The notes under the pieces were generated by a model. That model was not told the origin of the DNA. It did no database searches and saw nothing but the letters and a program-made list of their open reading frames with translations. A stretch of DNA of 64,000 nt from Gammaproteobacteria bacterium (GTDB lineage: Bacteria > Pseudomonadota > Gammaproteobacteria > Nevskiales > Nevskiaceae): contig JAPLSB010000017.1 in NCBI GenBank assembly GCA_026398875.1, forward strand, positions 248,001-312,000, read 5' to 3'. This document shows, in pieces, positions 19,995 to 61,401 of this stretch. The number at the start of each line of letters is the position of its first letter. The first letter of the stretch is position 1. The position numbers were made by a program, and so were the translations under genes.

Positions 19995-20033
19995 CGTTTG
20001 GTTTGATTCACCGCGACAGTTGGTTTGATTCGC
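19995..20033 (+). other. Prophage left-end transposase-binding sites (two, 22 bases apart)
   Basis: CGTTTGGTTTGATTCAC at 19995-20011 and CAGTTGGTTTGATTCGC at 20017-20033. Both match the inverted sites at the other end, with core TGGtTTGA. Arrangement resembles Mu R1-R2. The second site touches the stop codon of the first prophage gene. Confidence 0.8.
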
Positions 20034-57817: not shown

Positions 57818-59401
57818 ATGGCCATCGTCGACCAGTTCGGCCGCCCCATCGTCATCGCCGATCTCAAGCGCGAGATCGCCACCCCGCAGGTCACCGGCGT
57901 GCGCCAGGTGTGGCAATCCAGCATCGCGCTCGGGCTGACACCGGCCGGGCTGGCCAATGTGCTGCGCAGCGCGGCCGAGGGCGATCACGACAGCTACCTG
58001 ACGCTGGCTGAGGAAATGGAGGAGCGCGATCCGCACTACGCGGCCGTGCTGGCCAACCGCAAGCAGGCGGTGAGCGGCTTGCAGGTGACGGTGGAGGCGG
58101 TGGATGAATCCGCACCGGCCATGCGCCATACCGAGCTGCTGGAAGCACTGGTTGCGATGCCGGCATTCGAAGCGATGCTGGAAGAGCAGCTGGACGCGCT
58201 GGGCAAGGGCTACAGCGTCAACGAGATCATCTGGGATACCAGCGAGCGGCAATGGATGCCGAAAGCGTTCGAGCACCGCGACCCGCGCTGGTTCCAGTTC
58301 GACCGGGCATCGCAGCGCGAGCTGCACCTGCGCGATGCCGCAAACCTCACCGATGGCGTACCGCTGGCGCCGTACAAGTTCCTGGCACACCTGCCGCGCA
58401 TCAAGACTGGGCTGCCGATCCGCGGCGGCCTGGCCCGCGTGGTGGCGTTCGCCTGGATCTGCAAGGCATACGCCCTGAAAGACTGGGTGGCGTTCGCCGA
58501 AGTGTTCGGCATGCCGCTGCGCATCGGCCGCTACGGTGCCACCGCGAACGATGACGACATCCGGGTGCTGAAGATGGCCGTGGCAAACATCGGCACCGAT
58601 GCAGCGGCCGTGCTGCCGGAATCGATGAAGATCGAGTTCCAGGAGGTGAGCAAGACCGGCGGCGGCGCTGACGTGTTCGAGCGCCTGTGTGCCTACATCG
58701 ACCGGCAGATCAGCAAGGCCGTGCTCGGCCAGACGATGACCACCGAAAGCGGCGGCGGCAGCGGGCTGGCGCAGGCCAAGGTGCACAACGAAGTGCGCCA
58801 GGACATCCAGAAAAAAGATGCCAAGCAGCTAGCCGCCACCATCAACGCCATGCTGGTGCGCCCGATCATCGACCTGAACTTTGGGCCGCAGAAGACGTAC
58901 CCGCGCATCTGCCTGAACGTGCCGGAGCCGGAAGACCTGGCGGGCCTCGTGACCGCGCTGAAGGAACTGGTGCCGCTTGGCCTGCGCGTTGAGCAGAGTG
59001 TGATCCGCGACAAGTTCGGGCTGCCGGAGCCGGCGGATGATGCCGAGCTGCTGTCGGCGCCTGCGCGCCGTGAGCGCGCTTCGGGTTCCGAGCCGCCGGA
59101 CGATGACGCCGATCCGGCCGCGCCACCGGCCAAGGCCCGCAACGCCGCCACGAAGCCGGCACCGCCGACCACGTCGGACGAGCAGGCCAGCCGCATGGTG
59201 CGCGAGGGCGACCCGGTGGTGGGCGCGCTGGTGGCCCCAATCGAGCAGATGCTGGCCGCCTCGAACTCGTTCGAGGAGTTCCGCGAAAAGCTGCTGGATG
59301 CCTACACGGATCTCGACGACAAGGCGCTGGCCGAGCTGCTGACCCAGGGCCTGACCGCAGCACATCTGGCCGGCCGCTACGAGCTACTGCTGGGCGTTTG
59401 A
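57818..59401 (+). CDS. Portal protein (DUF935, Mu gp29-like)
   Basis: 527 residues. NVLRSAAEGDHDSYLTLAEEMEERDPHYAAVLANRKQAVSGL and LGKGYSVNEIIWDTSERQWMPKAFEHRDPRWFQFD are diagnostic of the DUF935 portal family. It forms the dodecameric DNA channel at the head vertex. It starts 3 bases after the TerL stop. Confidence 0.94.
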   Translation: MAIVDQFGRPIVIADLKREIATPQVTGVRQVWQSSIALGLTPAGLANVLRSAAEGDHDSYLTLAEEMEERDPHYAAVLANRKQAVSGLQVTVEAVDESAPAMRHTELLEALVAMPAFEAMLEEQLDALGKGYSVNEIIWDTSERQWMPKAFEHRDPRWFQFDRASQRELHLRDAANLTDGVPLAPYKFLAHLPRIKTGLPIRGGLARVVAFAWICKAYALKDWVAFAEVFGMPLRIGRYGATANDDDIRVLKMAVANIGTDAAAVLPESMKIEFQEVSKTGGGADVFERLCAYIDRQISKAVLGQTMTTESGGGSGLAQAKVHNEVRQDIQKKDAKQLAATINAMLVRPIIDLNFGPQKTYPRICLNVPEPEDLAGLVTALKELVPLGLRVEQSVIRDKFGLPEPADDAELLSAPARRERASGSEPPDDDADPAAPPAKARNAATKPAPPTTSDEQASRMVREGDPVVGALVAPIEQMLAASNSFEEFREKLLDAYTDLDDKALAELLTQGLTAAHLAGRYELLLGV

Positions 59402-59402
59402 C

Positions 59403-60644
59403 GTGGCGACGGCTTACGGCAGCCTGCCGTTCAGGGAACAGATCGCGTTCTTCCGGCAGAAGCTGAACCTGCCGACCCGCAGCTACACCGATATCCAGGG
59501 CGCGCAGCACGATCAGGCGTTCGTCGTGGCCGGCGCGATGAAGGCGGATCTGCTGGCCGACCTTCGCACCGCCGTCGACCGGGTGGTCGCCGAGGGCATC
59601 GGCTTCGAAGCCTTCAAGGCCGATTTCAAGGGCATCGCGGCGAAGCACGGCTGGGCCTATACCGGCGGCTCGAACTGGCGGGCGCAGGTGATCTACGAGA
59701 CCAACCTGAACCAGAGCTACAACGCCGGCCGGGAAGTGCAGATGGCCGACCCGGCGCTGCGCAAGCGCCGGCCGTTCGGCCTGTACAAGCACTACGCCAG
59801 CCCGAACGAGCGGCCTGAGCACGTGGCCTGGGACGGCATGGTGGTGGCGCTGGATGACCCGTGGTGGTCATCGCACAGCCCGGCCAACGGCTGGGGCTGC
59901 AAGTGCAAGAAGTTCATGGTGAGCGCGCGCGATGTCGAGCGGCGCGGCTTGACGGTGACGCCGGGGCCGCCGATCGATTACGAGGACCGCGTGATCGGCA
60001 AGCGCAGCGGCAACCCGCAGACGGTGCGCGTGCCGAAAGGCATCGATCCTGGCTTCCAGTACGCGCCGGGCCGGCGCTTTCATCCGAACCTGGACAAGTA
60101 CCCGGAGCCGATCGCGCGCGGTGTGGTGGCGCAGAACCTGCGCACTGGCGTGTTCGAGCGGTGGCACCAAAGCATCGAAAGCCGGGTGGCTGCCGCCCGG
60201 CCCCAGCCTGAACTTGTCGATCTGCCGAAGCCGGCATTGATCCGCGCGCTTCGCCAGCGTCTGGCGCAGCAAGAGCAGTTCGCCGTCGCGGTGTTATCGC
60301 CAGCCAACCGCGAGTTGCTCGCGGTCAAGACGCAGACCGTGCACGTGTCCGACTACGACCTGATCAAGCAGGCGGTGTCGCGCGAAGGCCAGGAAATGGC
60401 TGCGTCTGACTACTTTCAGGTGCAGCGAGTCATCGACGAAGCCAGCGTCGTAATCCGGGAAAGCGAGGCAATCACGGTGTGGGTTCGGCGCGGCGACGAC
60501 TACCTGCAGGTCGTGCTGCAGCAGACCGAGAGCGGCCAAGGCCTGTATCTCAAGTCGTTCCGTCGTAGCTCGCCGAAAGACGTGGCGCGGGAGCGAAAGC
60601 GAGCGAGCAGCAAGGGCTACCCGGTACTGAAGGATGAGGGGTGA
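59403..60644 (+). CDS. Minor head protein gpF-like with C-terminal PBECR-type nuclease-like domain
   Basis: 413 residues from GTG 59403. Residues about 1-250 are the Mu gp30/F-like head morphogenesis domain (RAQVIYETNLNQSYNAGREVQ...HYASPNERPEHVAWDGMV...NGWGCKCKKFMVS). Residues about 275-413 look like a phage barnase-EndoU-colicin-RelE-like (PBECR) nuclease domain: VKTQTVHVSDYDLIKQAV, DYFQVQRVIDEASVVI and VWVRRGDDYLQVVLQQTE..GLYLKSFRRSSPKDVARERKR. Being part of a head protein, it could be injected with DNA. The domain call is from pattern, not alignment. Confidence 0.85.
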   Translation: MATAYGSLPFREQIAFFRQKLNLPTRSYTDIQGAQHDQAFVVAGAMKADLLADLRTAVDRVVAEGIGFEAFKADFKGIAAKHGWAYTGGSNWRAQVIYETNLNQSYNAGREVQMADPALRKRRPFGLYKHYASPNERPEHVAWDGMVVALDDPWWSSHSPANGWGCKCKKFMVSARDVERRGLTVTPGPPIDYEDRVIGKRSGNPQTVRVPKGIDPGFQYAPGRRFHPNLDKYPEPIARGVVAQNLRTGVFERWHQSIESRVAAARPQPELVDLPKPALIRALRQRLAQQEQFAVAVLSPANRELLAVKTQTVHVSDYDLIKQAVSREGQEMAASDYFQVQRVIDEASVVIRESEAITVWVRRGDDYLQVVLQQTESGQGLYLKSFRRSSPKDVARERKRASSKGYPVLKDEG

Positions 60645-60739
60645 CGCACCATGCGAGGGCTCCAACCTCCTCGCTTACGCCTCGATAGGTCCACCTGCGT
60701 GGAATGCGCCGGCCGGGAGATTCACCGAAGGCGCGTCAC
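60641..60739 (+). other. Possible structured RNA in the gpF-gpG gap
   Basis: 7-bp closing arms GTGACGC (60641-60647) and GCGTCAC (60733-60739) enclose a hairpin GCGAGG/CCTCGC (60653-60674) and a second stem GCGCC/GGCGC near the 3' arm, suggesting a multi-branched fold of 99 bases. The 122-base gap is unusual in this tightly packed block. No tRNA T-loop is present. A 30-codon frame (60651-60743) also exists but has no visible start signal. Confidence 0.35.
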
Positions 60740-60766
60740 GTGAAAAGCGTACCACGGAGATGAGAA

Positions 60767-61255
60767 ATGGCTGGCGCGATCCTCAATCTTGACCTTCGCG
60801 GGCTGCAGACCTTCGACCAGGCGGTCACCCGCATCGAGCAACTGTTGCGGTACCCGGAGCCCCTGCTGACCGATATCGGCGAGGCGCTGCTGCTATCGGT
60901 CGACGAGCGCTTCGAGCGCCGCGAAGATCCGGACGGAATACCGTGGGAGCCGGTCAGCGATAAGTACGCCGGGCGGAAGAGCGCCGGCAAGGCAACGAAG
61001 CGATCGGGTGCGGTCACCGATCCGGGCAACATCCTCGAACTGACCCGCGATCTCCGGCGACTGACCAGGTACCAGGTCGATGGCGAAACGCTGCTGATCG
61101 GCTCGGACCGCGTGTACGCAGCAACCCACCAATTCGGCGATCCGAAGCGAGGCATTCCGGCGAGGCCGGTCTATGGATTGTCGGACGATGACCGAGAGGA
61201 AATCGGTCAGCTGGTGATTGAGCACCTCGACGATGCCGTGCGGAATTTCCCGTGA
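60767..61255 (+). CDS. Virion morphogenesis protein gpG (Mu gp31-like)
   Basis: 162 residues. RYPEPLLTDIGEALLLSVDERFERREDPDGIPWEPVSDKYAGRK and LTRDLRRLTRYQVDGETLLIGSDRVYAATHQFGDPKRGIPARPVYGLSDDD are typical of the phage virion morphogenesis (tail completion) family. Last gene on this side; in Mu the protease gene follows it directly, here the prophage end does. Confidence 0.92.
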   Translation: MAGAILNLDLRGLQTFDQAVTRIEQLLRYPEPLLTDIGEALLLSVDERFERREDPDGIPWEPVSDKYAGRKSAGKATKRSGAVTDPGNILELTRDLRRLTRYQVDGETLLIGSDRVYAATHQFGDPKRGIPARPVYGLSDDDREEIGQLVIEHLDDAVRNFP

Positions 61256-61401
61256 CGCGGAGTTAATCGCGCGTCGAAACATGCATCAAACCAACTGTCG
61301 CTCGGCCTGTCGGCGTTGTCGGCGAATTTTCTTTTACTTATCCCGATTTAGCCCACTTTTTCCCGCTTTTTCCCGTGCTTCAATCCATACGTCAGCAAGC
61401 A
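61256..61401 (-). other. Prophage right end with transposase-binding sites
   Basis: Non-coding terminus. Two inverted copies of the left-end sites: 61375-61391 (read inward CGTATGGATTGAAGCAC) and 61281-61297 (read inward CAGTTGGTTTGATGCAT). A 17-base segment at 61285-61301 is the exact inverse of 20013-20029. AT-rich spacing with two TTTTTCCCG runs lies between. Ends ...AAGCA, then the target duplicate CCTGG. The wide site spacing resembles Mu attL. Confidence 0.8.

Follow-up and report, generated by a model that had tools for sequence, protein, structure and literature searches.

Type III toxin-antitoxin systems, of the ToxIN kind, consist of an RNase-type protein and an adjacent pseudoknotted RNA, the RNA antitoxin being made up of short tandem repeats upstream of the toxin gene.

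Predicted RNases are also found attached to phage head proteins. The PBECR domains were defined as predicted RNases by Iyer 2017 (PMC5512222), which describes families with a helix His and a C-terminal Ser/Thr, and one family with Arg in place of the His. The same paper reports MuF-PBECR fusions, the gpF of Mu itself included, and proposes that the domains are injected. Jamet 2017 (PMC5576092) gave an account of MuF polymorphic toxins and remarked on C-terminal extensions, as yet unexplained, in the phages of proteobacteria. The passages of PMC5512222 consulted do not mention an RNA partner of the PBECR fusions. The gpF-PBECR fusion is already known, then; apparently undescribed is a structured RNA that lies directly behind it, and it is this RNA and its relation to the nuclease-like domain that we consider here.

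The window, a stretch of 64,000 nucleotides of a gammaproteobacterium of the Nevskiaceae, carries a Mu-like prophage at about 19.97-61.40 kb (19970-61402) with inverted repeats at its ends, which are probably transposase-binding sites. The gpF-like ORF is found there in the order portal-gpF-gpG (Table 1), and joins a MuF domain to a C-terminal toxin-type domain within the packaging module of a prophage, the arrangement by which Jamet 2017 recognizes MuF toxins. Genes for head, tail, transposition and lysis are present in the prophage, and gpF can thus serve as a functional virion protein. The gene order of the prophage is unusual. At its left end genes for tail, sheath, major head protein and protease are followed by transposase and early genes, all on the minus strand; lysis, terminase, portal, gpF and gpG, encoded on the plus strand, make up the right end. 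Mu and JBD25 place protease, head and tail after gpG. The right end is shared with the relative G008.

Table 1. Features of the gpF region and of the prophage ends in window coordinates; the last row gives positions within other loci.
Feature	Position	Strand	Remarks
Portal protein	57818..59401	+	5' neighbour of gpF
gpF-like minor head protein with C-terminal PBECR-type domain	59403..60644	+	413 aa, GTG start
Phage_Mu_F domain (PF04233), residues 53-169	59559..59909	+	Pfam, E 3e-12
PBECR3-like BECR-fold domain, about residues 292-413	60276..60641	+	Pfam match 294-393, window model
Arg327 codon (SREGQ motif)	60381..60383	+	site of the helix His in most relatives
Gln373 codon	60519..60521	+	Lys at the same position in 171/179 relatives
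Ser385 codon	60555..60557	+	Ser/Thr at the same position in 177/179 relatives
Structured RNA, ~100 nt, from gpF stop codon	60641..60739	+	covariance-model match, family covariation
RNA outer stem (P1)	60641-60647/60733-60739	+	
RNA hairpin P2	60653-60659/60668-60674	+	
RNA loop-loop pseudoknot P3	60660-60663 with about 60716-60719	+	CUCC with GGAG
RNA hairpin P5	near 60710-60727	+	
gpG-like gene	60767..61255	+	next after RNA, last before prophage right end
Inverted GTTTGATTCACCGCGACAGTTGGTTTGAT-like repeats	19998-20030 and 61279-61302		both prophage ends
Tandem orphan RNAs	L289 5464-5866; L272 602-856; L312 1703-1971		

Is the C-terminal domain a PBECR domain? The initial annotation saw a PBECR-type pattern in the last 130 or so residues of gpF, and this is borne out, as all three peptides that it quoted are present and the PBECR3 match covers much of the same segment. 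In the profile search it had called for, the window copy itself stays below the Pfam cut-off, whereas SuMu- and Mannheimia-type relatives exceed it. The isolated C-terminus scores 22.8 bits (E 9e-5) against PF18812, PBECR3, for which the gathering cut-off is 30 bits, and so the domain is a PBECR3 relative and not a curated PF18812 member. Haemophilus phage SuMu, Mannheimia-type phages and other Pasteurellaceae-like viral loci lie above the cut-off, with L010, L048 and L081, from the SuMu-type and other viral loci, at 62.6, 54.6 and 37.3 bits; we therefore take the domain to be real, and the window copy to be divergent. Because of such divergence, a PF18812 scan of genomes missed most relatives, and our own alignments were used instead. 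A sequence search of the PDB gave chance matches only.

A trio of His, Lys and Ser/Thr is conserved among the relatives, the Lys and the Ser/Thr nearly throughout (Table 1). The His, of an HP motif, is present in 135 of 179 related domains, and in 43 it is replaced by an Arg-type SRxxQ motif, mostly in Pasteurellaceae-type phages, the window clade and L005. By the definition of Iyer 2017, the window domain keeps what marks the PBECR clade, namely a helix Arg (Arg327) and a C-terminal Ser (Ser385). The change of Lys to Gln is limited to the window protein, L001 and L004 (3/179). With Arg at the position of the helix His and Gln at that of the near-invariant Lys, RNA cleavage by the window protein is uncertain. 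To judge by these residues the activity of this copy is doubtful, and given the loss of the conserved Lys the toxin of this phage is likely impaired or altered.

The AlphaFold model of the window domain (pLDDT 91) has helices followed by strands at 103-107, 110-117, 120-128 and 135-143, and a relative that stands alone, L311, was modelled with pLDDT 89. In VIA-align, where Z below 8 is suggestive only by the tool's own note, L311 aligns with BrnT at Z 6.9 (rmsd 3.2, 77 of 77 residues), with the Salmonella toxin 7vd7 at 6.8, with CdiA-CT 7m5f at 6.5 and with RelE1 at 5.1; the first 23 rows are nearly all RelE, HigB, YoeB, ParE and YafQ chains. The window model gives 5.1 with 7vd7 and 4.5 with BrnT. 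Foldseek returned no PDB match below E 0.001 for either model. RelE-superfamily and CdiA RNases top the VIA-align list, then, although the Z values are modest and Foldseek lacks a significant match; the neighbour list of these models is consistent with, and suggestive of, a nuclease-like fold.

What lies between gpF and gpG? By comparing the gpF-gpG gaps of relatives we found a conserved element of ~100 nt that begins at the gpF stop codon. The family layout is an outer stem P1 enclosing a hairpin P2, a variable hairpin P4 and a hairpin P5, with a pseudoknot P3 joining the loops of P2 and P5. In an alignment of 24 sequences, trimmed by eye to the P1 ends, 86.7% of cells pair versus 73.2% when shuffled, and the covariation score is 0.411, whereas shuffled alignments give 0.187 and slid ones no more than 0.187. 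P3 was left out of model building and covaries nonetheless: its mean of 4.92 bp compares with 4.14 for shuffled alignments and with a maximum of 4.59 in 500 shuffles, and it covaries as CTCGA/TCGAG, CTCCC/GGGAG, CTGCC/GGCAG, CTACC/GGTAG and CTCCG/CGGAG. An automatic pseudoknot finder run on unaligned sequences gave mostly wrong folds and was replaced by this alignment-based counting. Single-sequence fold energies are mildly unusual (z -0.3 to -3.1, the window RNA having -2.45), so that the case rests on covariation.

The covariance model matches the window at 60646-60741 with 30.5 bits (E 0.001 in 438 kb, E 0.01 in the whole genome), a match that exists by construction, since the window sequence is among those that built the model; the support for the window RNA is its shared structure and position. 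A search of Rfam 15, ribozyme families included, gave no match above a gathering score and only chance-level ones, apart from an unrelated cobalamin riboswitch in L030. Searches of the openly available literature turned up no comparable RNA.

Could the gap encode a protein instead? A translated peptide across the RNA was rejected, as the reading frame differs between relatives. A protein immunity gene after the window gpF was likewise rejected: the gap to gpG is 122 nt and contains no suitable ORF. The sole ATG ORF seen there has 31 codons in a frame not common to the relatives, and ORFs of at least 35 aa are mostly absent from the relatives' gpF-gpG gaps. ORFs of 54-69 aa occur 3' of the RNA only in L010/L036/L037, L048, L073 and L077. 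In some Pasteurellaceae-type phages, a family of MEELLGDGW..YP-type proteins of 59-69 aa is encoded between the RNA and gpG (L010 3902-4102, L036, L048, L073); these small proteins might confer immunity or be cargo of another kind.

How closely is the RNA tied to the nuclease-like domain? It follows gpF in all of 36 protein-selected PBECR3/H-type loci except L007, L071 and L082; at L077 the usual RNA is about 300 nt further down from gpF. Mu, JBD25, MT835710 and the Stenotrophomonas phage examined lack it. Among phages examined the gpF C-terminus is a swap slot, occupied by PBECR2 in JBD25 and MT835710, by a sub-threshold MuF_C in Mu and by the PBECR3-like domain in the window. As a side observation, L077 (4461-4878) and L082 (4458-4570) have, directly after gpF, another element that resembles the RNA in the layout of its stems but diverges in sequence; L071 is grouped with these. 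The gpF loci L143, L186 and L214 have the RNA near gpF and gpG and lack a recognized PBECR3-like domain, the gpF C-terminus of L143 being PBECR2-like in appearance.

The linkage can also be approached from the RNA. An alignment-driven search for loci was unproductive, there being too few conserved stretches. The covariance model, run against genomes, placed 7 of 16 matches behind PBECR3/H-type gpF. A pattern built on the RNA only, TACGGCMGGNAGAN{4,9}CACCGTGTC, run on viral and genomic sequences, found at least 120 viral stretches and 111 genomic ones (at least 231 copies). With a domain HMM that had been built from protein-selected homologues before the RNA scan, the upstream ORF matched the domain in 148 of 181 cases among the matches listed (120 gpF fusions, 28 others). 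With an HMM rebuilt on the enlarged set, the domain lies directly upstream of the RNA in 152 of the 221 matches listed with enough 5' sequence, as against a mean of 3.0 and a maximum of 8 for random positions in the same loci, it being understood that the sequences in these sets are related, so that the loci are not independent events. The 152 partner genes among the matches listed comprise 120 gpF fusions, 20 genes without a gpF match and 12 that run off the contig. Most of the 20 solo genes among these matches are of about 130-170 aa; none of the 17 solo loci checked has Mu-like genes around it, and the six inspected sit amid ordinary chromosomal genes or beside an integrase.

The RNA and the domain also vary together. 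The distances between the RNAs of 111 gpF loci are correlated with those between their domains (r 0.49), and the partial correlation given the gpF N-terminus is 0.42 (0/500 permutations), versus 0.16 for the RNA and the gpF N-terminus given the domain. Among pairs with near-identical N-termini the mean RNA distance is 0.30 where the domains differ, compared with 0.11 where N-termini and domains are both similar. The RNA varies with the nuclease domain and, much less, with the rest of gpF; physical closeness explains part of this co-variation. L051 has mostly one domain type paired with an RNA of another type, so that the pairing is perhaps not strictly specific, or the specificity lies in the last residues. 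Taken as a whole, the linkage of RNA and domain is strong.

In about 30% of cases the RNA is not preceded by a PBECR-like gene, and some of these copies are beside plain host genes. Among the matches listed, 65 loci have the RNA without a PBECR-like gene nearby, with clear full-length scores in all except the weakest few. Three orphan loci have two or three diverged copies in tandem (Table 1), those of L289 being in a Mu-like prophage. Judged by eye, the orphan RNAs of L093, L085, L097 and L092 are near other conflict genes, their neighborhoods including a BrnT/BrnA pair, PIN and Fic genes, a serine recombinase with a SIR2-like gene, and a CRISPR-like array.

What might such an RNA do? An antidote role seems most likely. 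A nuclease with an adjacent RNA, solo pairs, orphan tandem RNAs and joint swapping form the pattern expected of a toxin and its RNA antidote, and we give about an even chance to a virion-borne module in which a PBECR/BECR-fold domain is accompanied by the ~100-nt pseudoknotted RNA behind its stop codon as its antidote. One might think instead of a 3' element that acts in cis on the upstream mRNA, such as a processing site, a self-cleaving ribozyme, or a stability or termination element. In most loci the RNA does start within a few nt of the upstream stop codon, and self-cleaving ribozymes are reportedly enriched near Mu-like phage genes (PMC10085705). We nevertheless consider a cis element unlikely, as the same RNA is found behind solo PBECR-like genes outside phages, is found also without such genes and sometimes in tandem, is missing after PBECR2 or MuF_C gpF in the phages examined, and matches no known ribozyme family in Rfam 15. 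A ribonucleoprotein whose RNA serves the nuclease as cofactor, guide or preferred substrate, and not as inhibitor, would show the same tight linkage to the domain and the same joint variation. This seems quite improbable, in that the RNA, leaving aside hairpin P4 and the compensating outer stem, has no variable guide-like segment, and the orphan tandem arrays are more easily explained by immunity.

A separate issue is whether the pair still works in the window phage, where the domain might have degenerated into a C-terminus with a chiefly structural role, and the RNA might be a remnant. The Lys to Gln change confined to the window clade, the score of the window RNA, which is among the three lowest of the set, and the MuF_C of Mu itself, which by eye lacks the motif, would all suit decay. 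We think decay rather unlikely, as the domain keeps Ser385, Tyr337 and the Arg of its R-type motif, the RNA keeps its stems, and the layout is preserved in a 73%-identical relative and in a viral contig.

If the RNA is an antidote, one can picture its use as follows. During lytic growth the RNA, made from the gpF transcript, would hold the nuclease silent, and in the producing cell or lysogen it would bind and inhibit the nuclease; the gpF C-terminal domain would be packed in the virion and delivered along with the DNA, so reaching a naive target cell without the RNA. On this view the solo pairs of chromosomes would act in the manner of toxin-antitoxin systems, and RNAs that are orphan or in tandem would confer immunity to other phages. 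Homology of the domain, structure of the RNA, their linkage, co-variation by type, solo modules and orphan arrays were computed; virion delivery, RNase activity and inhibition by the RNA are inferred. That all these loci form one toxin-antitoxin-like class, in which an RNA-neutralized BECR-fold RNase serves as a warhead of phage heads, as a chromosomal solo pair, and, through orphan arrays, as immunity to rival phages, is a more tentative proposal, for which we would put the chance a little short of even. The initial annotation had read the domain as a toxin on a head protein. Its PBECR-type identity stands, and the suggestion of injection with the head protein is one already made in PMC5512222; the reading overlooked the Arg-for-His and Gln-for-Lys changes of this copy and missed the adjoining RNA, by virtue of which a toxin on a head protein becomes a nuclease domain with an RNA partner.

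Should the antidote role hold, it would explain how the producing cell is protected in phages that pack an RNase-type domain into heads, and would be a rare case of RNA-based immunity to a polymorphic toxin. One covariance model would then be a handle on hundreds of nuclease/RNA pairs, and the orphan RNAs, findable by the same model, would be candidates for superinfection immunity. In any event this is a structured RNA family outside Rfam, with a testable protein partner.

How does the window locus compare with the systems already described? Like the PBECR/MuF-C gpF fusions (PMC5512222; PF18812, PF18810, PF18819), it has MuF followed by a C-terminal predicted BECR RNase, but the window copy scores below the cut-off of PF18812 and carries Gln in place of the near-invariant Lys. 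The MuF polymorphic toxins (PMC5576092; Bxa, Apk2, PMC11699363) similarly join MuF to variable C-terminal toxin domains for which virion delivery is proposed; in their case small proteins encoded downstream are credited with immunity, whereas the window has a structured RNA between gpF and gpG. The closest solved folds are RNase toxins of the RelE/BrnT type (BrnT Z 6.9, RelE-type about 5), with about 10% identity to the PBECR3-like domain, and their known antitoxins are proteins. The self-cleaving ribozymes near Mu-like genes (PMC10085705) are likewise small, structured, pseudoknotted RNAs of Mu-like phages, but no Rfam class matches the present RNA, which is tied to one nuclease family. To the type III toxin-antitoxin systems the likeness is that of an RNase-type protein with a neighboring pseudoknotted RNA. 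In contrast to those systems, the PBECR-linked RNA lies downstream, usually as a single ~100-nt copy and in tandem only at three orphan loci, and the putative toxin is BECR/RelE-like and often fused to a phage head protein.
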